A DNA stretch of 64,000 nucleotides from Burkholderiales bacterium. GTDB lineage: Bacteria; Pseudomonadota; Gammaproteobacteria; Burkholderiales; Burkholderiaceae_C. Position numbers and translations under genes: made by a program. The notes under the pieces were generated by a model, which saw nothing but the letters and a program-made list of their open reading frames with translations, searched no databases and was not told the origin of the DNA. Shown one piece after another: positions 31,861 to 44,263 of this stretch; within the stretch, counting starts at the first letter, position 1; each line of letters starts with the position of its first letter. The stretch is taken from positions 28,058 through 92,057 of the forward strand of contig CANBTT010000004.1 in the NCBI GenBank assembly GCA_947372465.1, written 5' to 3'.

Positions 31861-32580
31861 TTATGCCGCGTCAGCAATCTGGACTTGTGCAGTGAAGCGG
31901 TATCCTGCTCCCCTGACCGTCTCAATCATGGGCCCAGCAGCGCCCAATGACTCTCGCAAACGCTTCACATGCACATCGACCGTGCGCTCCTCAATGAACA
32001 CGTGATCACCCCAAATTTTGTCAAGGAGTTGCGAGCGTGAATGCACACGCTCAGCATGGCGCATCAAATAATTCAACAACTTGAATTCTGTGGGACCGAT
32101 CTTAAGCGCCACATCTCTGAAGTTGACCCTGTACGTTGCACCATCCAGGGTCAAATCACCAACCGTGACCGTGTCCAATGCTTGTTCCGGTGCGCGTCGC
32201 CTGAGGACCGCACGAATGCGTGCCAACAACTCCTGGGTCGAAAAGGGTTTGGTGATGTAGTCATCCGCTCCAGCATCCAGGCCGGAGACCTTGTCGCTTT
32301 CATCGCTTCTGGCTGTCAACATCACAATGGGAACGCTTTTGACTCTTGGATCGGCTCGCCATCTTTTGGCCAAAGTCACACCACTTTGACCAGGGAGCAT
32401 CCAGTCGAGCAAGATGATGTCGGGCAAAATCGTGTCAATCTCTCTTTGTGCCGACTCTCCATCTTCTGCCCAAATGGGTGTGAGCCCATTGTGACGAAGA
32501 TTGACTGCAATCAATTCGGCGATGGAGGACTCATCTTCTACGATCAAGACTCTAGGAGGATGTCTCATTTCAATGGCCAA
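31861..32580 (-). CDS. phoB: Phosphate regulon response regulator PhoB
   Basis: The protein has 239 residues in the OmpR/PhoB class. The receiver domain (residues about 8-125) has acidic pocket VEDE, phospho-acceptor Asp at about 59 (IILLDWMLPG), and Lys in DDYITKPF. The winged-helix domain (about 140-235) ends with FIEERTVDVHVKRLRESLG and VRGAGYRF. Phosphorylated PhoB binds Pho boxes of two 7-bp repeats and recruits sigma-70 polymerase. It starts 3 bases after phoU, so it is part of the pst operon. Its usual partner phoR is not next to it. An ATG four codons into the ORF is an equally possible start. Confidence 0.96.
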   Translation of the reverse strand: MAIEMRHPPRVLIVEDESSIAELIAVNLRHNGLTPIWAEDGESAQREIDTILPDIILLDWMLPGQSGVTLAKRWRADPRVKSVPIVMLTARSDESDKVSGLDAGADDYITKPFSTQELLARIRAVLRRRAPEQALDTVTVGDLTLDGATYRVNFRDVALKIGPTEFKLLNYLMRHAERVHSRSQLLDKIWGDHVFIEERTVDVHVKRLRESLGAAGPMIETVRGAGYRFTAQVQIADAA

Positions 32581-32583
32581 TCT

Positions 32584-33285
32584 TTATTGAAGGGTGGACT
32601 CAATTTGTTCAATGGATGTATGGCGTACATCGGCCCCATTGACAATATAAATAATGAGCTCAGCAATGTTTTTAGCATGGTCCCCAATTCGCTCAATGGC
32701 TTTGGCAATGAAGAGCAAATCCAAGCTTGCAGAAATGGTTCTTGCATCTTCCATCATGTAGGTGATCAGGATTCTCAAAAACCCATCAAACTCAGAATCT
32801 ATCAAATTGTCATCTTTCAAGATCGACAAAGCCGTCTTGGTGTCCAAACGTGCAAATGCATCAAGGGCTTTTCTTAAAATAGAACTGGCCATTTCTGAGG
32901 CGACTCTAAGTTCAGACGCTGGGAGAGCACGGCTGTTGCCGCTTTGGATAATGGACTTGACCATCCGTGCAATTTTCTCGGCCTCGTCGCCTGCTCGCTC
33001 TAAATTGGCCGTCATTTTTGAGATCGCCATCAAAAGCCTCAAGTCAACGGCTGTGGGCTGTCTGCGGCCAATGATAGAAGTCAAATCGCGATCGATCTCA
33101 ACTTCTAATGCATTGACTCTCGCCTCGTTTTCTATCACGTGATCAGCAACCTCGGCGCTGAATTGGGAGAGTGCATAAACAGCTTGCCTGATTTGAGATT
33201 CGACCAAGCCACCCAGCTCCATCACTCTAGAGGAGACACTGTTGAGCTCGGAATCAAATTGCGTTGAGAGGTGTTTGTCAGCCAT
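32584..33285 (-). CDS. phoU: Phosphate signalling complex protein PhoU
   Basis: The protein has 233 residues as two three-helix bundles. Each repeat has the metal-binding E/D-rich pattern seen in the family (for example MELGGLVESQIRQAVYAL in repeat 1 and AIERIGDHAKNIAELIIYIVNG in repeat 2). PhoU links the Pst transporter to PhoR and keeps PhoR in its phosphatase state when phosphate is plentiful. It lies between pstB (42-base gap) and phoB (3-base gap). Confidence 0.96.
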   Translation of the reverse strand: MADKHLSTQFDSELNSVSSRVMELGGLVESQIRQAVYALSQFSAEVADHVIENEARVNALEVEIDRDLTSIIGRRQPTAVDLRLLMAISKMTANLERAGDEAEKIARMVKSIIQSGNSRALPASELRVASEMASSILRKALDAFARLDTKTALSILKDDNLIDSEFDGFLRILITYMMEDARTISASLDLLFIAKAIERIGDHAKNIAELIIYIVNGADVRHTSIEQIESTLQ

Positions 33286-33327
33286 GATTATTTCCTAAAT
33301 TTCTAGTCAATATAATTTATTTCAATT

Positions 33328-34104
33328 TCAACCGAAGCGACCCGTAATATAGTCCTCTGTCTCTTTTCTTTGAGGCTTGAAGAACATTTGCTCCGTGGCG
33401 CCAAATTCAACCAAATCACCCAAGTACATATAGGCTGTAAAGTCGCTGCAACGTGCTGCTTGCTGCATGTTGTGGGTCACAATCACAACGGTGTAGTCTT
33501 GCTTCAATTCAATGATCAACTCTTCCACTTTGGCCGTCGAGATCGGATCGAGCGCAGAGCATGGCTCATCAAGCAACAAGACCTCAGGCTTGATGGCAAT
33601 GCCTCTGGCGATGCACAAGCGCTGTTGCTGCCCACCGGATAGACCCGAGCCACTTTGCTGCAACTTGTCCTTGACTTCTCCCCAAAGTGCGGCCTTTCTT
33701 AAGGCCCACTCCACTCGGTCTTCCATCTCACTTTTGGTCAAGTTTTCAAACAACTTCACGCCAAACGCGATGTTGTCAAAGATGGACATGGGAAATGGCG
33801 TTGGCTTTTGAAAAACCATCCCAACCTTGGCCCTGATCAATGCCACATCGTCCTTGGAGGCCAATAAATTTTCACCATCCAAAACAATTGAACCTTCTGC
33901 GCGCTGCTCTGGATAGAGTTCAAACATGCGGTTAAACGTTCTGAGCAAGGTTGACTTTCCGCAACCTGATGGGCCAATGAAGGCCGTTACTTTGTTTTCT
34001 GGAATTTCCAAATTTATATTTTTAAGTGCATGGAACTTTCCATAATAAAAATTTAAATTCTGAACAGATATTTTAGATTGTGTAATTGTTTCTGCTTGCA
34101 TCAT
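33328..34104 (-). CDS. pstB: Phosphate ABC transporter ATP-binding protein PstB
   Basis: The protein has 258 residues and is a complete ABC ATPase: Walker [10 protein letters not shown], signature LSGGQQQR, Walker [14 protein letters not shown], and the switch His in [10 protein letters not shown]. It powers high-affinity phosphate import by PstSCA and participates in signalling to PhoU/PhoR. It is 15 bases downstream of pstA. Confidence 0.98.
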
Positions 34105-34119
34105 GATTCCATTTGAAAT

Positions 34120-34968
34120 TTAAGATTTTTGACGGGTAAGCACCCGAGCCAAAATATTCAGACCTAAAACAGCCACAGTGATTAAAAATACACCAGCCCA
34201 GGCCAACTCTTGCCAATTTTGATAAGGGCTCATGGCAAACTTAAAAATGGTCACAGGCAGACTTGCAACCGGCCCACTCAAACTGGAGGTCCAAAATTGG
34301 TTGTTCAACGACGTAAAAAGGAGCGGTGCTGTTTCACCTGAAATCCGAGCAACAGCCAACAAAATACCGGTCACCACCCCTGAGCGTGCGGCCTTTAAGG
34401 TAATGCCCATGATCACCTTCCATTTGGGTGCACCCAAAGCATAGGCCGCCTCTCTAAGCCCTGGAGGGACCAAGAGCAGCATGTTTTCTGTGGTTCGGAT
34501 GACCACAGGTATCACGATCAATGCCAGCGCCAATATACCCGCCCAACCGGAAAATGTATTAAAACGTGCAACAACAAGGGTGTAGACAAACAAACCAATG
34601 ACAATAGAGGGTGCAGAGAGCAAAATTTCGTTGACAAAGCGCGTGATGTTGGAGAGTTGTCCCTTGGGGTTGTACTCAGCCAAATAAATGCCCGCCATCA
34701 CGCCAATGGGCGTACCGACAAAGGTGGCCAACAAAACCATCACAAAGGATCCGTAAATCGCATTGGCTATGCCACCAGGATCATTTGGAGCAGGCGTCAT
34801 TTCAGTCAAGGTGGCCACGCTCAAGCCGTGGAGGCCCAAGAAAATCGTTTGCCACAAAATCCAAATGAGCCAAATCAAACCAAAGGCCATGGCGGCCATG
34901 GACAAGAAAATAGCGATTTGATTGGTTCTTTTTCTCGCTTTGAACTTGGCGACTCTCTCTTGACTCAT
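34120..34968 (-). CDS. pstA: Phosphate ABC transporter permease PstA
   Basis: The protein has 282 residues with six membrane helices. The ABC permease EAA-like loop reads [23 protein letters not shown]. It pairs with PstC to form the phosphate channel. Its start overlaps the pstC stop by 4 bases (translational coupling). Confidence 0.97.
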
Positions 34969-36002
34969 GATGAGGTCCCTTCGTTTTTACGCATTCTTGC
35001 CAACAACAATTTAGACAATGACAAAACCACAAAGGTGATGAAAAACAAGACCAGACCCAGATAAATCAGGGATGCCTGGTGCAATCCAGTAGAAGCTTCA
35101 GCAAACTCATTGGCCAATGCAGATGTGATGCTGTTGGCAGGCTCAAAGAAACTGATGGAATTGAGTTGGTTCATGTTACCAATCACAAAAGTCACCGCCA
35201 TGGTTTCTCCAAGCGCTCGCCCTAGACCCAACATGATGCCGCCAATGACACCCGCTTTTGTATACGGCAAGACCACATTGGAGACCACCTCCCATGTCGT
35301 GGACCCAAGACCGTAGGCCGACTCTTTGAGCAAAGGAGGTGTCACCTCAAAAACATCTCGCATCACTGATGCGATGAATGGAATGATCATGATGGCCAAA
35401 ATGATGCCCGCAGAAAGAATACCAATTCCAACGGGCGGACCTGCCACCAATGCGCCGATGATGGGCACGGAGCCTATCAGCTTTTGCAGAGGAATTTGCA
35501 CATAGGTTGACAAAATGGGGCCAAAAACAAGCAAACCCCACATGCCGTAAACAATGGAAGGGATGGCTGCCAACAACTCAATCGCTGTTCCGAGTGGCCT
35601 TTTTAGCCAAGCAGGCGAGAGTTCAGTTAAAAACAAAGCGATTCCAAAACTCACTGGAACTGCAATCGCCAAGGCGATGATGGACGTGGCCAATGTGCCG
35701 TAAATCATCACGAGACCACCAAATTCACTTTGAACCGGGTCCCAGACGCTTCTGGTGAGAAAGCCCAAACCATACTCATGTATGGCGGGCCAAGCACCGC
35801 TGATCAATGAAAGCAAAATGCCCGAAAGCATTGCAAGCGTCAAACAAGCCGCCGATAATGCAGCCCAACCGAACAAGCGGTCCACGAGGCCATTGACTCT
35901 TTGACTGGGTTTATCGGCAGAAGTATTCATTCGAGAATGAGAAAGTTGATTTGAAGAGCTTGAGTCAGGAACTCCATCTCCTAGGGGATGCTGATAACTC
36001 AT
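34965..36002 (-). CDS. pstC: Phosphate ABC transporter permease PstC
   Basis: The protein has 345 residues. A polar N-terminal tail of about 40 residues precedes six membrane helices. The EAA loop is [23 protein letters not shown], diagnostic of PstC. It forms the channel with PstA. The N-terminal tail is somewhat long; an ATG at MNTSADKPS (residue 25) is an alternative start. The gene starts 30 bases after pstS. Confidence 0.97.
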
Positions 36003-36032
36003 GAAGTTCCTGAATCTCTAAAGTTTTATCAA

Positions 36033-37076
36033 TTAAAACGCAATGGCTTTGCCAGATGCGTCCTTGATTTGTGACCAAGACTTGCGAATAACGTCTTTGA
36101 CTGAAGCAGGCATTGGAACGTAGTCCAAGTCGTCAGCAGTTTTGTCACCATTCTTGTAGGCCCAGTCGAAGAACTTCAATGAAGAGCTCGCATTGGCTGG
36201 CTTGTCTTGCACCTTGTGCATCAAAATGAAGGTCGCACCAGTGATGGGCCAAGAATCTTTGCCGGGCTGGTTCGTCAAAATTTGATAGAAGCTCTTGGCC
36301 CAATCTGCACCGGCTGCAGCCGCTTTGAAGGCTGTGTCATCAGGGTCAACAAAAGTACCGGCGCTGTTTTTCAACTTGGCGTATGTCATTTTGTTTTGCT
36401 TCACATATGAATACTCAACATAACCAATTGAATTGGGAATGCGGGTGACAAAAGCAGAAACGCCCTCATTGCCTTTGCCGCCAAGACCAACAGGCCAATT
36501 GGGAGCCGTGCTCTCACCGACCTTGGTTTTCCACTCAGCACTGACTTTGCTCAAGTAGTTGGTAAAGATGAAGGAAGTCCCTGATCCATCAGAGCGACGA
36601 ACTGGGGCAATCAATGCATCGGGCAAACTCAAAGTGGGATTCAAGGCTTTGATCGCTGCATCATCCCATTTGGTGATTTTTCCTAAATAGATCTCGGCCA
36701 ACAATTCGCCTGTTAAAAGCAATTTACCGGGTGCAATGCCAGCAATGTTTACAACAGGAATCACGCCACCAATGACGGTGGGGAATTGAACTTGCGCTTT
36801 TTTGTTCAACTCTTCATCTGTCAAAGGCATATCGGATGCACCAAAATCAACCGTTTTGGCATCAATTTGCTTGATACCAGCGCCAGAACCCACGGACTGG
36901 TAATTGACCTTGATGGAAGTGGCCTTGTTGTAATCGGCGGCCCATTTGCTGTACAAAGGAGCTGGAAAGGAGGCACCTGCTCCAGTGATGTCCTGAGCCA
37001 AAGCTGCACCGACACCAAAGGCTGCCAATAAAGCAGCGACCATTGTTGAACGCTTGATCATGAATTGTTTCCTCAT
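36033..37076 (-). CDS. pstS: Periplasmic phosphate-binding protein PstS
   Basis: The protein has 347 residues. The signal peptide (STMVAALLAAFGVGAALAQ) is followed by ITGAGASFPAPLYSKWAADYNK, the phosphate-binding loop, and later VRRSDGSGTSFIFTNYLS with the second set of phosphate contacts. It delivers phosphate to PstCA. An internal ATG (MIKRSTM, 15 bases on) is an equally credible start. It is the first gene of the pstSCAB-phoU-phoB operon and carries a Pho box 37 bases upstream of its annotated start. Confidence 0.97.
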   Translation of the reverse strand: MRKQFMIKRSTMVAALLAAFGVGAALAQDITGAGASFPAPLYSKWAADYNKATSIKVNYQSVGSGAGIKQIDAKTVDFGASDMPLTDEELNKKAQVQFPTVIGGVIPVVNIAGIAPGKLLLTGELLAEIYLGKITKWDDAAIKALNPTLSLPDALIAPVRRSDGSGTSFIFTNYLSKVSAEWKTKVGESTAPNWPVGLGGKGNEGVSAFVTRIPNSIGYVEYSYVKQNKMTYAKLKNSAGTFVDPDDTAFKAAAAGADWAKSFYQILTNQPGKDSWPITGATFILMHKVQDKPANASSSLKFFDWAYKNGDKTADDLDYVPMPASVKDVIRKSWSQIKDASGKAIAF

Positions 37077-37112
37077 AAGTTAATGAAAGCTTGTTTACTT
37101 TATTCACTTAAT

Positions 37113-37130
37113 GTGACATTAATATGACTA
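37113..37130 (-). promoter_or_regulatory. Pho box upstream of pstS
   Basis: On the minus strand TAGTCAT-ATTA-ATGTCAC is two 7-base half-sites with an AT-rich 4-base spacer, close to the PhoB consensus CTGTCAT-AWAW-CTGTCAT (five of seven in each half). A further ATTA spacer and a weaker third unit follow. Placement 37 bases before pstS suits PhoB-activated transcription. Confidence 0.75.
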
Positions 37131-37174
37131 ATCTCATTAAAACCCATCTTTATTGTCAATAAACCTCACAGCAC

Positions 37175-37203
37175 AGGTCACTCTTTTGTCATATTTTGAT
37201 CAT
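37175..37203 (+). promoter_or_regulatory. Pho-box-like triple repeat upstream of ppx
   Basis: CAGGTCA-CTCT-TTTGTCA-TATT-TTGATCA shows three GTCA/ATCA cores with exact 11-base phasing. The best pair, TTGTCAT-ATTT-TGATCAT, matches the consensus at six and four of seven positions. It faces ppx, 57 bases before its ATG, in the shared pstS-ppx region. Confidence 0.6.
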
Positions 37204-37259
37204 ATGATAGCTGATTGCTTAAAATAAACGATTTGTCCACCCTTACTTAATTTTTCATA

Positions 37260-38762
37260 ATGCAAAATGGCGCACTCTTAGCCGCTGTAGATTTAGGATC
37301 AAACAGTTACAGGTTAGAAATTGGCAGAATTGAACATGGCCACGTTCACCGAACCGAATACATCAAAGAAACCATTCGTCAAGGCAACGGCCTGGATGAA
37401 AACAGAAACTTGTCCCTGGAAGCCATGCAAAGAGGCTGGGACTGCTTGGCACGCTTTGCTGAGCGCATGTCTGGCCTTGAGAAAAAAAATGTTCGCGCGG
37501 TGGCAACTCAAACTTTAAGAGAAGCCAAAAACAGAGATGTCTTTTTGGAGCAAGCAAGCACCATTTTGGGCTTCCCCATTGAAGTCATTTCGGGGCGCGA
37601 AGAGGCCAGACTGATTTATCAGGGTGTCTCCCATCTCCTTCCCCAATCCAAAGAGAACCGCTTGGTGGTGGACATTGGGGGCAGATCAACAGAAATCATC
37701 TTGGGACAAAACTTAAACCCCAAAGTCTTGGAGTCTTACCGAACAGGAAGCGTTGCTTGGAGCATGAAATACTTCAAGGACGATGTGTTCAGTGCAAGCG
37801 CTTTTGAGAAAGCGGAGATTGCTGCAAAGGCGGTTCTTGATGAAGCCGTGACACTTTACCCCAAGGAAAGCTGGGATCAAGCCTATGGCTCCTCGGGCAC
37901 CATTGGCGCCGTATGCGATGTGCTTTTTGCCAATGGCTGGAACCCCGATGAGATCACCCGCTCTGGATTGGCTTGGCTTAAAAAATCCCTCATCCGTGCG
38001 GGAAACTCCAGCAGCTTGTACCTAGAGGGCCTAAAGGATGACCGCAAAGCGGTGATTGGCGGAGGCATCTCCGTCTTAAAAGCGGTCTTTGACATCCTAG
38101 AAATTGACACCATGCACTATGCACATGGTGCACTTCGACATGGTGTGCTGTACGACTTGATTGACCGGGAAGACGAACACTACGATGTGCGAAGCATCAC
38201 CATCACCAGGTTACAAAAGGCCTTTGGTGTAGACACTCAACAATCCAAGAGAGTCAGCCTTGTTTCCAACCATTTGTTTGATCAATTGAGCATCAAAGAA
38301 ACGGATCCATCTGAACAGGGCAAACTGAAGAAGAAACTCTCCTGGGCCTCGGATTTGCACGAAATCGGCATGGTGATCTCACACAGCGATTACCACAAAC
38401 ATGGCGCTTACATTTTGGACCAAAGTGACACGCCTGGCTTCACGATCCCAGAGTTGCACCGCTTGGGGCTTTTGGTTTTGGGTCACAGAGGAAAATTGAG
38501 AAAACTCAACATCAACTTTGATGACGAAGGCTTTTGCCAGCAATTGATGTGCTTGAGATTGGCGGTCATTTTGTGCCATGCAAGACGGGAGCCGGACTAC
38601 AAGAACTTAAAAATCAAGGCCTCTAAAAAGAGCCCCAAGACGGTCGACCTAGAGATCTCAGAACAATGGATACAGTCCCACCCCCAGTCTTTTCACTTGC
38701 TCCAAATTGAGACCCAGTCTTGGCTTAAAACCAGCTGGGATCTCAAGGTCAATGCCCACTGA
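37260..38762 (+). CDS. ppx: Exopolyphosphatase / guanosine pentaphosphate phosphohydrolase (Ppx/GppA)
   Basis: The protein has 500 residues in the sugar-kinase/Hsp70 actin-like fold. It starts with LLAAVDLGSNSYRLEIGRI (phosphate-1 loop), has VVDIGGRSTEIILG (second phosphate-binding loop), AYGSSGTIGAV, and a C-terminal HD-like helical domain with DLHEIGM. It hydrolyses inorganic polyphosphate from the end. It is transcribed divergently from pstS, toward ppk1's side, so synthesis and breakdown of polyphosphate are encoded together with phosphate uptake. Confidence 0.95.
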   Translation: MQNGALLAAVDLGSNSYRLEIGRIEHGHVHRTEYIKETIRQGNGLDENRNLSLEAMQRGWDCLARFAERMSGLEKKNVRAVATQTLREAKNRDVFLEQASTILGFPIEVISGREEARLIYQGVSHLLPQSKENRLVVDIGGRSTEIILGQNLNPKVLESYRTGSVAWSMKYFKDDVFSASAFEKAEIAAKAVLDEAVTLYPKESWDQAYGSSGTIGAVCDVLFANGWNPDEITRSGLAWLKKSLIRAGNSSSLYLEGLKDDRKAVIGGGISVLKAVFDILEIDTMHYAHGALRHGVLYDLIDREDEHYDVRSITITRLQKAFGVDTQQSKRVSLVSNHLFDQLSIKETDPSEQGKLKKKLSWASDLHEIGMVISHSDYHKHGAYILDQSDTPGFTIPELHRLGLLVLGHRGKLRKLNINFDDEGFCQQLMCLRLAVILCHARREPDYKNLKIKASKKSPKTVDLEISEQWIQSHPQSFHLLQIETQSWLKTSWDLKVNAH

Positions 38763-39288: not shown

Positions 39289-41346
39289 CTATTTCTTGGC
39301 TTCATAGCGCCGCATCAAAGCCTCTTGCGCACTGTGCTCGACCTTTCCCGGCCCCAAGACAGGCTTTGCATATTTGCCATTGGCTTGAAGACTCCACGCA
39401 TCCTTGGCATCTCCTAGGTAAGCCAATAGACATTCGTCGATGAGTCTTTGTCTGAGTTCGGCATCCAAGACGGGCCAAGCAATCTCCACGCGACGCAGCA
39501 TATTGCGGTTCATCCAGTCGGCGCTAGAGAGGTACAAACTCTCCACATCATCAATCGCGAAGTAAAAAACTCTGGAATGCTCTAAAAACCTTCCAACGAT
39601 AGAGCGCACCTTGATGTTTTCCGTTTGCCCTGGTACTTGAGCAGACAATATGCACGCACCGCGAACGATCACATCAATCAATACACCGCAATGACTGGCA
39701 TCCATCAAGGCTTTCACGAGTCGCTCATCGGTCAATGAGTTCATCTTGAGCACAATGCGACCTCTCTTGCCCCGCAAGGTGCTGGCCGACACTGTTTTGA
39801 TGAATTTGATCATCTGATCATGCAAATGAAAGGGTGCGACCAACAGGTGATTCAATTTTGGCAAGGGACTTTGACCGGCCAAATGCACAAACACTTGCTC
39901 AATATCGGCCGTCATTTTGACATCTGCTGTCAACATGCTGATATCGGTGTAAAGCTTGGCCGTTCTTGCGTTGTAGTTCCCCGTCGACAAGTGGGCATAC
40001 CTCACCAACTTCTTTCCCTCCTTGCGGGTGATGAGAAGCATCTTAGCGTGTGTCTTCAAACCCACCACCCCGTACACGACTTGTGCTCCAATCGACTCCA
40101 GTCTTTCAGACCAATTGATATTGGCCTCTTCATCAAACCTGGCCTTCAGTTCCACCACCGCAGTCACCTCTTTGCCCCTGCGAACCGCCTCCCTTAAAAG
40201 ATCCATCAACTCAGAGTCTGAACCCGTGCGATAAATGGTTTGCTTAATGGCCAAGACATTGGGATCGTTGACCGCTTCCTTTAAAAAAGCCAATACAGCA
40301 GAAAAACTTTCATAGGGCTGGTGAACCAGTATGTCCCTCTTCTTGAGTTGATTGAAAATTGGCTCAAGGCTTGTATAGGCCTTGGGAAAGGATGCTTTGT
40401 AGGGCTTGAACAAAAGAGCAGGCAAATCGACCAAATCAATCAATTGATTGAGTCTGACCAAATTGACAGGACCATGAACTCGGTACAAAGCAGTCTCCGG
40501 CAATTGGAACTGCTTGAGCAAGAAAAGATAAAGGTCTTGAGAGCAACCTGAGGAGACCTCCAGTCGCACGGCTTGTCCAAACTGCCTTTGCTCCAAACCT
40601 TGGCGCAGTGCTGTCCTTAAATTTTGAACGTCTTCCTCATCCACTGCAAGTTCTGAGTCCCTGGTGACTCTAAACTGAGAGAACTGACCCACATGTCGAC
40701 CGGGGAACAAATCGCTCAAGTGCGCGCGAATGACACTGCTCAAAGCGACAAAGTAGTTCTTCTTGCCAACCACTCGTTCAGGTATTTTGATGATGCGAGG
40801 AAGAACTCGGGGCACCTTCACAATGGCAATTTCATTTTCTCGGCCAAAGGCATCCTTGCCCGACAAGCGCACAATGAAGTTCAAGGATTTGTTGGCAACC
40901 GTTGGAAAGGGATGCGCTGGATCCAGGCCGACTGGCACCAACAGAGGTTTGACCTCTTGATCGAAATACTGCTTGACCCATTTTCTTTGAACCAAGGTAC
41001 GCTCACCATGGGAGAGCAACTTGATGCCCTTATCAGCAAAGTCTGCCAACAAGTGCTCGTTGTACAAAGCGTATTGCTCATGGACCAAGCGATGAGCCAA
41101 CTCAGAGAGTTTTAAAAAGGAATGACTGCTGTAGAGGGCTTTGCTTTCGTGGTGATGAACAGCGCGCAAATGCAAGGCCATTCTGACTTCAAAAAACTCA
41201 TCCAAATTGGAGGACACGATGCACAAATACCGCAGTCGCTCCAAAAGGGGGACATCGGCTCTTTTGGCCCAATCCAGCACACGCTCATTGAATGCCAAAA
41301 AGCTTTCATCTCGGGGCAGCAGGACATGCTCTTTAGAATTGCTCAA
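39289..41346 (-). CDS. ppk1: Polyphosphate kinase 1
   Basis: The protein has 685 residues, the full PPK1 length. The N-terminal domain has RLRYLCIVSSNLDEFFEVR. The catalytic region has KTHAKMLLI (His433, equivalent to the autophosphorylated His of E. coli PPK) and RYAHLSTGNYN. The enzyme reversibly polymerises the gamma phosphate of ATP into polyphosphate. Upstream, a perfect inverted repeat lies in the gap to the glycosyltransferase gene. Confidence 0.97.
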   Translation of the reverse strand: MSNSKEHVLLPRDESFLAFNERVLDWAKRADVPLLERLRYLCIVSSNLDEFFEVRMALHLRAVHHHESKALYSSHSFLKLSELAHRLVHEQYALYNEHLLADFADKGIKLLSHGERTLVQRKWVKQYFDQEVKPLLVPVGLDPAHPFPTVANKSLNFIVRLSGKDAFGRENEIAIVKVPRVLPRIIKIPERVVGKKNYFVALSSVIRAHLSDLFPGRHVGQFSQFRVTRDSELAVDEEDVQNLRTALRQGLEQRQFGQAVRLEVSSGCSQDLYLFLLKQFQLPETALYRVHGPVNLVRLNQLIDLVDLPALLFKPYKASFPKAYTSLEPIFNQLKKRDILVHQPYESFSAVLAFLKEAVNDPNVLAIKQTIYRTGSDSELMDLLREAVRRGKEVTAVVELKARFDEEANINWSERLESIGAQVVYGVVGLKTHAKMLLITRKEGKKLVRYAHLSTGNYNARTAKLYTDISMLTADVKMTADIEQVFVHLAGQSPLPKLNHLLVAPFHLHDQMIKFIKTVSASTLRGKRGRIVLKMNSLTDERLVKALMDASHCGVLIDVIVRGACILSAQVPGQTENIKVRSIVGRFLEHSRVFYFAIDDVESLYLSSADWMNRNMLRRVEIAWPVLDAELRQRLIDECLLAYLGDAKDAWSLQANGKYAKPVLGPGKVEHSAQEALMRRYEAKK

Positions 41347-41520: not shown

Positions 41521-42558
41521 TCAAGGACCGGTGGACTTGACCAAATAGCTCAAAAACAAATCACTCGCCTGCTTCCAATCAAAGTCCAACGCCCTTTGTC
41601 TCGCCTCCCAACGATTGATCTTGAGCGCTTGATGAACAGCCGTGTCTAATTGGTCGCTCATCACCCCTCCCAAGGTCCTTTGAAATGCGTCCCTTTTCTC
41701 CAGCACTTGAAGTGGCCCATCCACCGGGAAAGCCGCCACAGGCGTGCCCGTGCTCATCGATTCAAGCATGACCAAGCCAAAGGTCTCATTGAGGCTTGAG
41801 AACACAAACACATCGGCGGCTCCATACACGCGCGCCAAGGTCGATCGATCCAAGACGCCCAGCCAGCGGACACTGTGATAGTTGGCCTTTAAATCTTCAA
41901 GCACCGGCCCAACGCCACAAACCACTTTGCTGCCCTTTAAATTCAAATTCAAAAAGGCTTTGATGTTTTTCTCGTATGAAACTCGGCCCACATACAAGAA
42001 AATGGGTCTTTCAAGCCCGCTGAGTTGCTCCAACGCCAAAGGTGTTTCTTGGTACTGAAAAAGCTCGGTGTCCACCCCGTGTGTCCAAGCCCTCAGGTTT
42101 TTGAAACCCCTGCCCTCTAGCATCTTCAAGACACCAAGGGTTGGCACCATCACCCCTTGAGAGTGCTTGTGAAAATGACGCATCAAGGCATATCCCAAAA
42201 ACAAAGGCACCTTCAAGGCGGCTTTCAAAATTTCTGGAAACTTGGTGTGAAAGGCTGTGGTGTAAGACCAGTTGTTTTTCTTGGCTGCTTTTCTTGCCGC
42301 CCACCCCAAAGGACCTTCGGTCGCAAGGTGCAATGCATCGGGCTTGAAGTCATCAAGAAGAGCTGTGAGTTTTTTATAAGGCTTCACCGCCAAATCAATG
42401 CCTTGGTAGCCTGGGCAGGGACGGTGATCAAAGAGGTATGGATGAATGACCAAGACCTCATGCCCATCGCCCTCCAATCTTTGCACCAACTCGATGAGCG
42501 TGGTCACAACACCATTGACCTGGGGCGCCCAGGCGTCACTCACCAGCGCTATTTTCAT
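41521..42558 (-). CDS. GT4-family glycosyltransferase, probable diacylglycerol glycosyltransferase (Agt-like)
   Basis: The protein has 345 residues in a GT-B fold. The N-terminal domain begins MKIALVSDAWAPQVNGVVTTL with the glycine-rich donor-sugar loop. The C-terminal domain has IFLYVGRVSYEKNI and SSLNETFGLVMLESMSTGTPVAA, the E-x7-E retaining-glycosyltransferase motif. Similar proteins next to plcP in Alphaproteobacteria (Agt) glycosylate diacylglycerol under phosphate starvation. Here it is 12 bases downstream of the PlcP-like gene in the same operon. Mannosyl or phosphatidylinositol-type transferases are related alternatives. The family call is firm; the acceptor is an inference from context. 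Confidence 0.75.
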   Translation of the reverse strand: MKIALVSDAWAPQVNGVVTTLIELVQRLEGDGHEVLVIHPYLFDHRPCPGYQGIDLAVKPYKKLTALLDDFKPDALHLATEGPLGWAARKAAKKNNWSYTTAFHTKFPEILKAALKVPLFLGYALMRHFHKHSQGVMVPTLGVLKMLEGRGFKNLRAWTHGVDTELFQYQETPLALEQLSGLERPIFLYVGRVSYEKNIKAFLNLNLKGSKVVCGVGPVLEDLKANYHSVRWLGVLDRSTLARVYGAADVFVFSSLNETFGLVMLESMSTGTPVAAFPVDGPLQVLEKRDAFQRTLGGVMSDQLDTAVHQALKINRWEARQRALDFDWKQASDLFLSYLVKSTGP

Positions 42559-42570
42559 GCACGAACTCCC

Positions 42571-43338
42571 TTATGCTTCGACCAATTCATGGGCAGGATC
42601 CTCCATGGTCAAGGGGTCCCAGTAAAGCAGTTCCAGAGAGCCATCAAAATGCTCCACCAATGCAGAACGACTCTCCACCCAGTCGCCATCGTTGCAATAC
42701 AAAACGCCCTCAATGTCTCTGATTTGAGCGCGGTGAATGTGACCGCAAACAACCCCCTGAAATCCCCGTCTTTTGGCCTCTTGCGCCAAGGCCTCCTCAA
42801 ATGAAGTCACGTAATTCAAAGCCGATTTGACCTTGTGCTTCAAGTAAGCCGACAAAGACCAATAGGGCAAACCCAAGTGAGTTCTCAGTTTGGCCAGGTA
42901 GCGATTGAGTTTCAAGGTGAGTTCATACAAATTGTCACCCACATGTGCCAACCATTTGGCATACTGCACGACCGCATCAAAGTAGTCGCCATGTGTGAGC
43001 CACAAACGCCGCCCATCGGCCAAGGTGTGCTCGGCTTCCTCAAGCAACTCCACACCACCAAACTGGTGGTTCACAAATTGCCGGGCAAATTCATCGTGGT
43101 TGCCTGGCACATAAACAACGCGTGTGCCCTTTCTCGCTCGACGCAACAACTTCTGAATCACGTCGTTGTGGGCTTGAGGCCAATGCCATCTTCGCTTGAG
43201 TTGCCAGCCATCAACAATGTCCCCCACCAAATAAAGAAAATCACTGCTGTTGTGCTTTAAAAAACTGAGCAGTGCATCCGCTTGACAACCGGGTGTTCCC
43301 AGGTGCAAATCCGATATAAAAATGGCTCTGTAATGCAT
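42571..43338 (-). CDS. plcP: Calcineurin-like metallophosphoesterase, PlcP-type phospholipase C candidate
   Basis: The protein has 255 residues from the ATG at 43338; the ORF track adds 31 residues that belong to the upstream gene in another frame. The ATG overlaps the previous stop (TGATG). Metal-site motifs in order are SDLHLG (9-14), GDIVDG (39-44), GNHDE (79-83), THGD (115-118) and GHIHRA (about 207). The sequence YLVGDIVDGWQLKRRWHWPQAHNDVIQKLLRRARKGTRVVYVPGNHDEF is the form I know from PlcP, which databases usually label UDP-2,3-diacylglucosamine diphosphatase (LpxH-like). PlcP cleaves phosphatidylcholine or phosphatidylethanolamine to diacylglycerol when phosphate is scarce. The neighbours fit that role better than lipid A synthesis. 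Confidence 0.75.
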   Translation of the reverse strand: MHYRAIFISDLHLGTPGCQADALLSFLKHNSSDFLYLVGDIVDGWQLKRRWHWPQAHNDVIQKLLRRARKGTRVVYVPGNHDEFARQFVNHQFGGVELLEEAEHTLADGRRLWLTHGDYFDAVVQYAKWLAHVGDNLYELTLKLNRYLAKLRTHLGLPYWSLSAYLKHKVKSALNYVTSFEEALAQEAKRRGFQGVVCGHIHRAQIRDIEGVLYCNDGDWVESRSALVEHFDGSLELLYWDPLTMEDPAHELVEA

Positions 43339-44186
43339 CAAGCGCCCAAGAAGTGCTTTCTGTATCGACTGGGCAAATCGGCAATTCTCATGAGCATCGG
43401 CAAATCGGCCGTATTGAAATCGGGGTCCCATGCAGGGGCGCCTAAAATTTTTGCACCCAACCTGAGGTAGCCCTTGATCAAGGCTGGTGGCTCGACGTTC
43501 ACGGGCGCATCAAACTGCTCAATCGGCAAAGCCAAACGGGGCCAAACCTGAAGTTCAATGGGTGCCAAATGGGTTTGTTTGAGCTGCCTCCAAATACTCG
43601 CTGCCGCCTCCCCGCTCACCACACCATTGTGCAGCATTGGAATGCTTGCGCAACCAATCATGGTGTCCAAATTGTTTCTCACCATGAATTCGGCCAACGC
43701 ACCCCAAAGTGCCATGATCACGGCACCTTGTCTGTAATCCGGATGCACACAACTTCTGCCCAACTCCACCATGCGCTCTCTTAAAGACCGCAGGCGTGTC
43801 AAATCAAATTCTGTATCGGTGTAATTGCCGCCCAGGCGCTTGGACTGAGCAGGCGTTAAGACGCGGTAGGTCCCCACCACCTCTTGTGTGTTTTGATCGC
43901 GAACAATCAAATGCTCACAGTAATCGTCAAACAAGTCGATGTCGTGGTTGGGCAATGTGCTGCTGATGCGCGCACCCATCTCACCCGCAAAAATATCGTA
44001 CCGCAGTCGCTGAGCCGCTCTCACCTCATCTTGGTGCTGCGCCCACGAAACAGAAATGCTGCCACGCTCAAGAGTTTTGGCTTCAGACCCAGAATTGGAT
44101 TTATTTTGACTTGGATGAAGTAACCCCCGAGGTATGGCAATGGGGGACAAATCGATCGTTGGTGTTGGCAATTCCTTCATGAACAC
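43338..44186 (-). CDS. olsB: GNAT-fold N-acyltransferase, OlsB-like (ornithine lipid synthesis candidate)
   Basis: The protein has 282 residues. The Acetyltransf_5/hemolysin-like domain (about 48-200) contains QRLRYDIFAGEMGARI, HLIVRDQNTQEVVGTYRVL, and MVELGRSCVHPDYRQGAVIMALWGALAEF, the cofactor-binding region of OlsB-type enzymes. OlsB transfers a 3-hydroxyacyl chain from ACP to ornithine, making lyso-ornithine lipid, which OlsA then completes; olsA is not in this window. An additional 45-residue polar N-terminus is unusual. It is the first gene of the olsB-plcP-agt operon and has a Pho-box-like element 60 bases upstream. The olsB symbol is tentative because acyl-homoserine or other amine acceptors occur in the same family. 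Confidence 0.68.
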   Translation of the reverse strand: MFMKELPTPTIDLSPIAIPRGLLHPSQNKSNSGSEAKTLERGSISVSWAQHQDEVRAAQRLRYDIFAGEMGARISSTLPNHDIDLFDDYCEHLIVRDQNTQEVVGTYRVLTPAQSKRLGGNYTDTEFDLTRLRSLRERMVELGRSCVHPDYRQGAVIMALWGALAEFMVRNNLDTMIGCASIPMLHNGVVSGEAAASIWRQLKQTHLAPIELQVWPRLALPIEQFDAPVNVEPPALIKGYLRLGAKILGAPAWDPDFNTADLPMLMRIADLPSRYRKHFLGA

Positions 44187-44245
44187 TCCTAATGTTTGGT
44201 TTCATGGAGTGTGCTGAATTTCTATGACACGACCGTGTCTTTCAT

Positions 44246-44263
44246 GTGAAACATTTTTGACAA
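44246..44263 (-). promoter_or_regulatory. Pho-box-like element upstream of olsB-plcP-agt
   Basis: The minus strand reads TTGTCAA-AAAT-GTTTCAC: two half-sites 11 bases apart with an AT-rich spacer, matching CTGTCAT at five and four of seven positions. It lies 60 bases upstream of the olsB-like start. By eye it is weaker than the pstS box, so it needs scoring against a matrix. Confidence 0.5.

Follow-up and report, generated by a model that had tools for sequence, protein, structure and literature searches.

A predicted PhoB-controlled olsB–plcP–agt operon for membrane-lipid remodelling in a freshwater Limnohabitans-like bacterium

The genes olsB, plcP and agt follow one another on the minus strand of the window, the 64,000-nucleotide stretch of DNA analysed here, in the genome of a freshwater Limnohabitans-like bacterium. 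The locus comprises the following features, given with the evidence for each.

44220–44263, minus strand: array of four putative PhoB half-sites in 11-bp phase (dinucleotide shuffles and relatives)
43338–44180, minus strand: olsB, first gene of the predicted operon, ornithine N(alpha)-acyltransferase, GNAT, 280 aa (PF13444 at 124 bits, and OlsB models)
42571–43338, minus strand: plcP, intracellular metallophosphoesterase-type phospholipase C, 255 aa (identity, tree, GNHDE motif, metal ligands)
41521–42558, minus strand: agt, GT4 diacylglycerol glycosyltransferase, 345 aa (PF13439/PF00534; 45% identity to Agt1, full length)
39289–41346, minus strand: ppk1, polyphosphate kinase, a neighbour (NCBIfam)
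37260–38762, plus strand: ppx, exopolyphosphatase of the Ppx/GppA family, a neighbour (NCBIfam)
31861–37076, minus strand: pstS, two permease-type ORFs, pstB, phoU and phoB, for phosphate uptake and sensing (NCBIfam for pstS, pstB, phoU and phoB)
31861–32580, minus strand: phoB, the presumed regulator (NCBIfam)

A preliminary description of this DNA had reported three tightly coupled genes, and their coordinates, overlap and spacing are all found as given there. The first gene, olsB, starts at an ATG preceded by AGGAG and overlaps plcP by one base at a TGATG junction; plcP and agt are separated by 12 bases. Family models likewise bear out the phosphate genes that had been named nearby (ppk1, ppx and pst), matching ppk1, ppx, pstS, pstB, phoU and phoB. 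The operon does adjoin ppk1, as had been claimed, but ppk1 lies 174 bases downstream of agt and is a separate neighbour; its position after agt is kept in relatives. On the other side, glmM is found 111 bases upstream of the operon.

On the sequence evidence the middle gene is a plcP and not an lpxH, as had been proposed. Its product is 56% identical to a protein of P. aeruginosa that we take to be the characterized PlcP PA3219, since it adjoins Agt-like and cyclase genes, as in PA3217–PA3219. It is 51% identical to a protein of S. meliloti that is presumably SMc00171, given adjoining genes for an autoinducer synthase and a LuxR regulator that we take to be sinI and sinR. Identity to the LpxH of its own genome is 28% across 123 residues. 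In a tree of 48 proteins a PlcP clade and an LpxH clade are split at 100/100; placement with LpxH had been set beforehand as a possible refutation, and the window protein falls outside LpxH and within the PlcP clade. The motif GNHD occurs in all 36 PlcP sequences of this tree and GNRD in all 12 LpxH sequences, and the window protein reads GNHDE. The metallophosphoesterase ligands (DLH, GD, GNHDE, GHIH) are present in PlcP, with D10, H12, D40, N80, H81, H116, H200 and H202 invariant. Hits in a sample of the phylum fall into two score groups, PlcP-like at 120 bits or more and LpxH-like below 45 bits.

Automatic annotation would instead make the middle gene an LpxH and the cluster one for lipid A synthesis. 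Annotated plasmid records do name proteins of the PlcP group ‘UDP-2,3-diacylglucosamine diphosphatase’, the routine call that had been foreseen for this gene. LpxH is also the closest solved structure by sequence, a search of PDB sequences having returned weak LpxH matches only and no PlcP. With the LpxH model, however, the window protein reaches 54 bits, where the curated cut-off is 134, and both the 100/100 split of the clades and the contrast of GNHDE with the GNRD of every LpxH examined separate it from that family. The question whether a true lpxH exists elsewhere in the genome is answered by L005, where such a gene adjoins two cyclophilin genes and its product scores 213 bits against the same cut-off. 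It is exceedingly improbable, on these grounds, that the gene serves lipid A synthesis as an LpxH. As a PlcP, its product would be predicted to release diacylglycerol from phospholipids.

Some of the records matched in these comparisons call for comment. The P. aeruginosa copy sits on a plasmid record that apparently carries chromosomal DNA. The label of L069 (CP090106.1) looks wrong, this being a 3.7-Mb ‘pSymB’ that bears genes taken as the chromosomal sinR and sinI, and so does that of L118 (CAMDGF010000010.1), a ‘Klebsiella pneumoniae’ MAG contig with a PlcP that is 66% identical to that of the window and typical of Burkholderiales.

The third gene encodes an Agt-like GT4 glycosyltransferase, again in keeping with the preliminary description: it adjoins plcP, and its product is 45% identical over the full length to that of the gene after PA3219 (Agt1 of P. 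aeruginosa). It is the one Agt homologue of the window genome. GalU is present, and a family search of this 99.7%-complete draft found no nucleotide-sugar dehydrogenase above cut-off; nor was such a dehydrogenase found above cut-off in G018, the closest relative. Since no UDP-glucose dehydrogenase was found in the window genome, gene content points to a glucosyl- rather than a glucuronosyl-diacylglycerol as the most likely product of Agt. With both PlcP and Agt closest to characterized lipid-remodelling enzymes, the view of these genes as a candidate lipid-remodelling module is sustained.

The product of olsB, the sole PF13444 protein of the genome, had been called OlsB-like. Its best NCBIfam matches are two OlsB equivalogs, at 167 and 157 bits and nearly full length; the next best model is OlsF, at 53 bits, and the OlsB models lead GlsB and OlsF by more than 100 bits. 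Because the scores lie below the equivalog cut-offs (350 and 320, respectively), the acylated amino acid is not certain. As both models seem to cover particular subclades, kinship with OlsB is less called into question by the shortfall than the identity of the amino acid.

The genome encodes three PF01553 acyltransferases, and among them is a candidate for olsA, the partner gene sought elsewhere in the genome. It lies at 1243–2019 of L037, by a dihydroorotase-like gene, and OlsA is its best model (146 bits, cut-off 300), compared with 82 bits for the phosphatidate-type AGP acyltransferase model. A separate PF01553 acyltransferase adjoins a gmhB-like gene and looks like PlsC. In plasmid records of Methylomagnum, Nonomuraea, Kitasatospora, Nocardia and Streptomyces, five in all, OlsB and the OlsA candidate match pairs of genes that lie side by side. 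Since both proteins are present and match such pairs elsewhere, the ornithine-lipid route is probably complete, as far as gene content can indicate.

It might be supposed that the acyltransferase makes another aminolipid, such as one containing glutamine or glycine, in which case the module would still be one of lipid remodelling. The unreached OlsB cut-offs and an identity of about 33% to the S. meliloti protein would accord with such a product, as would the divergent acyltransferase that fills the same slot in some relatives. The lead of the OlsB models over GlsB and OlsF, and the OlsA-like partner encoded in the genome, nevertheless make this unlikely, and ornithine lipid is the product predicted here.

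Upstream of olsB, four 7-mer half-sites, TTGTCAAAAAT GTTTCACATGA AAGACACGGTC GTGTCATAGAA, span 44220–44263, the array ending 39 bases before the ATG. The earlier claim of a Pho-box-like repeat at this place holds in one form but not in another. As a single 18-bp box of the E. coli Pho consensus the site is unremarkable, with 9 of 14 positions matching, and a scan did not distinguish it in the window genome; a two-unit score gives p = 0.21. As four half-sites in 11-bp phase it stands out in the window genome against dinucleotide shuffles (p = 0.007, z = 4.2), in a form picked after the sequence had been seen and the only one in which the window-genome signal is significant. Of 42 homologous loci, which are related and include a few duplicates (L006 = L036, L010 = L076, L011 = L075, and probably L030 = L081 and L032 = L085), 34 have the same phased array before olsB (p < 0.05). 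In relatives it usually starts about 83–85 bases before olsB. The signal belongs to a period of 11 (z = 4.0) and not to periods of 8–10 or 12–15 (z about 0.4 or less), and it is absent from pieces taken at random from those loci (z = 0.03). Because the form is post hoc and the loci are related or duplicated, the strength of the array lies in this pattern and not in a single p-value. A scan for sigma-70 and terminator signals gave nothing above chance. Phased Pho-like half-sites (AGGTCACTCTT TTGTCATATTT TGATCATATGA, p about 0.02–0.03) are seen also in the pstS–ppx intergenic region, 37077–37259.

Were the array a product of chance and the nearness of pst and ppk incidental, the three enzymes could be assigned to constitutive lipid turnover. 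The poor showing of the single 18-bp box in the window genome leaves room for this explanation, but the array is shared by about 80% of relatives and is specific to its period, no signal coming from other periods or from random pieces, and the explanation is therefore very unlikely. We regard the phased half-sites upstream of olsB as real and conserved, and control by PhoB would be expected from them.

The order olsB–plcP–agt, often followed by ppk1, recurs in Limnohabitans, Acidovorax, Polaromonas, Curvibacter and unclassified Comamonadaceae. This conservation rules out an operon unique to the window genome. Both olsB and plcP occur in 47 of 110 sampled Burkholderiales genomes; by hand count, the distance between them is at most 2 kb in 8 of the 47 and at most 7 kb in 12, and the close cases span about nine families, with the genes in several arrangements and orientations. 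Nearness of the two genes by chance would be expected in well under one of the 47 genomes, and a chance neighbourhood is rejected.

Some relatives have olsB–plcP without agt. In L008, from the 99%-complete genome G026, the pair is followed immediately by ppk1, and the genome yielded no Agt homologue. Since olsB–plcP is thus kept without agt, the three steps are not inseparable. In many relatives a gene for UDP-glucose dehydrogenase (ugd) lies beside the olsB–plcP–agt cluster; in L195 (G003) it is transcribed away from olsB, with the Pho array between the two, and in L196 and L197 it lies downstream of agt, while in G023 a mere 121-codon ugd-like fragment is left there. The ugd and ugd-like sequences concerned are at L195 4641–6041, L196 4931–6292, L197 5714–4353, L157 1674–3107 and L198 5507–5863.

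A second module, found in some relatives, combines a divergent OlsB-like acyltransferase with plcP and Agt and faces ugd. In genomes of the same genus such acyltransferases are encoded at L157 5111–6175 (minus strand), L156 5037–6047 (minus strand) and L031 494–1501 (plus strand). They have 335–354 aa, are about 29–30% identical to OlsB and score 38–46 bits on the OlsB models; the gene overlaps plcP and opens the second plcP–agt module. It is possible that the divergent acyltransferase makes a different aminolipid.

Remodelling by PlcP and Agt has been established in P. aeruginosa (PMC8528852), marine bacteria (PMC4796936) and Methylosinus (PMC9239053), and under phosphorus limitation the two enzymes make MGDG and GADG (PMC8528852, PMC4796936). 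The plcP–agt1 locus of P. aeruginosa (PA3219–PA3218) resembles that of the window in having a plcP (56% identity) followed by a GT4 agt (45%), a Pho box upstream, and a path from phospholipid through diacylglycerol to glycolipid; it differs in that olsBA forms an operon of its own and the organism has a further Agt, PA0842 (PMC8528852). In the window, olsB is instead gene 1 of the same operon, and the genome has one Agt homologue and no UDP-glucose dehydrogenase that could be found. The marine plcP contexts 1–6, which include the plcP–agt of SAR11 and Erythrobacter and the plcP–btaAB of Phaeobacter, likewise have predicted Pho boxes and, beside plcP, a gene that serves the synthesis of a phosphorus-free lipid, but the partners in the main text of that study, which covers a marine set only, are glycosyltransferase and betaine-lipid genes and do not include olsB (PMC4796936).

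In P. putida BIRD-1 both routes are PHO-controlled in one organism, PlcP, OlsAB and TuaD all being PHO-dependent (PMC5082522); the locus tags of plcP and olsAB are, however, far apart, and the genes therefore do not constitute one operon. The olsB of Burkholderia sensu lato is, like that of the window, betaproteobacterial with predicted Pho boxes, and in P. xenovorans at low phosphate ornithine lipid replaces phosphatidylethanolamine, as reported under data not shown; unlike the window, the available portions of that paper present no linkage to plcP or agt (PMC7814305). A search of the full text of open-access papers turned up no account of an olsB belonging to a plcP–agt operon and none of the pathway in Limnohabitans or Comamonadaceae; within that literature, the suggestion that the joint linkage of the two lipid routes may be undescribed stands. 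The enzymes and the logic are known, and it is the joint operon, its conservation in the Comamonadaceae and the modular variants that appear to be new. That this is a new arrangement of a known pathway, and not a new mechanism, is well supported.

It is very probable that olsB–plcP–agt represents a PhoB-controlled operon for membrane-lipid remodelling, by which phospholipids are replaced with phosphorus-free lipids of two kinds. Under phosphate scarcity PhoB, whose gene lies about 12 kb away, would in its phosphorylated form occupy the four phased half-sites upstream of olsB and induce all three genes at once, presumably as one transcript. PlcP would then cut the phosphate-bearing head group from phospholipids, yielding diacylglycerol as well as phosphate for reuse, and Agt would add a sugar, most likely glucose, to the diacylglycerol to form a phosphorus-free glycolipid. 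OlsB, acting with the candidate OlsA encoded elsewhere, would provide phosphorus-free ornithine lipid.

A broader proposal, which we offer tentatively and think on the whole doubtful, is that the Comamonadaceae have welded phospholipid breakdown and the synthesis of ornithine lipid and glycolipid into a single PhoB switch with swappable slots. In such a switch agt could be lost, ugd could be gained, and olsB could be replaced by its divergent, plcP-overlapping relative, which might make an undescribed aminolipid. The compact operon and its natural variants, with agt lost or ugd gained, are well suited to study of the division of work between glycolipid and ornithine lipid. Labels reading ‘UDP-2,3-diacylglucosamine diphosphatase’ often hide a PlcP. 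Growth in lakes is often limited by phosphate, and Limnohabitans and related bacteria are abundant there; correct annotation would show that they can probably, like marine bacteria, economise on the phosphorus of their membranes.
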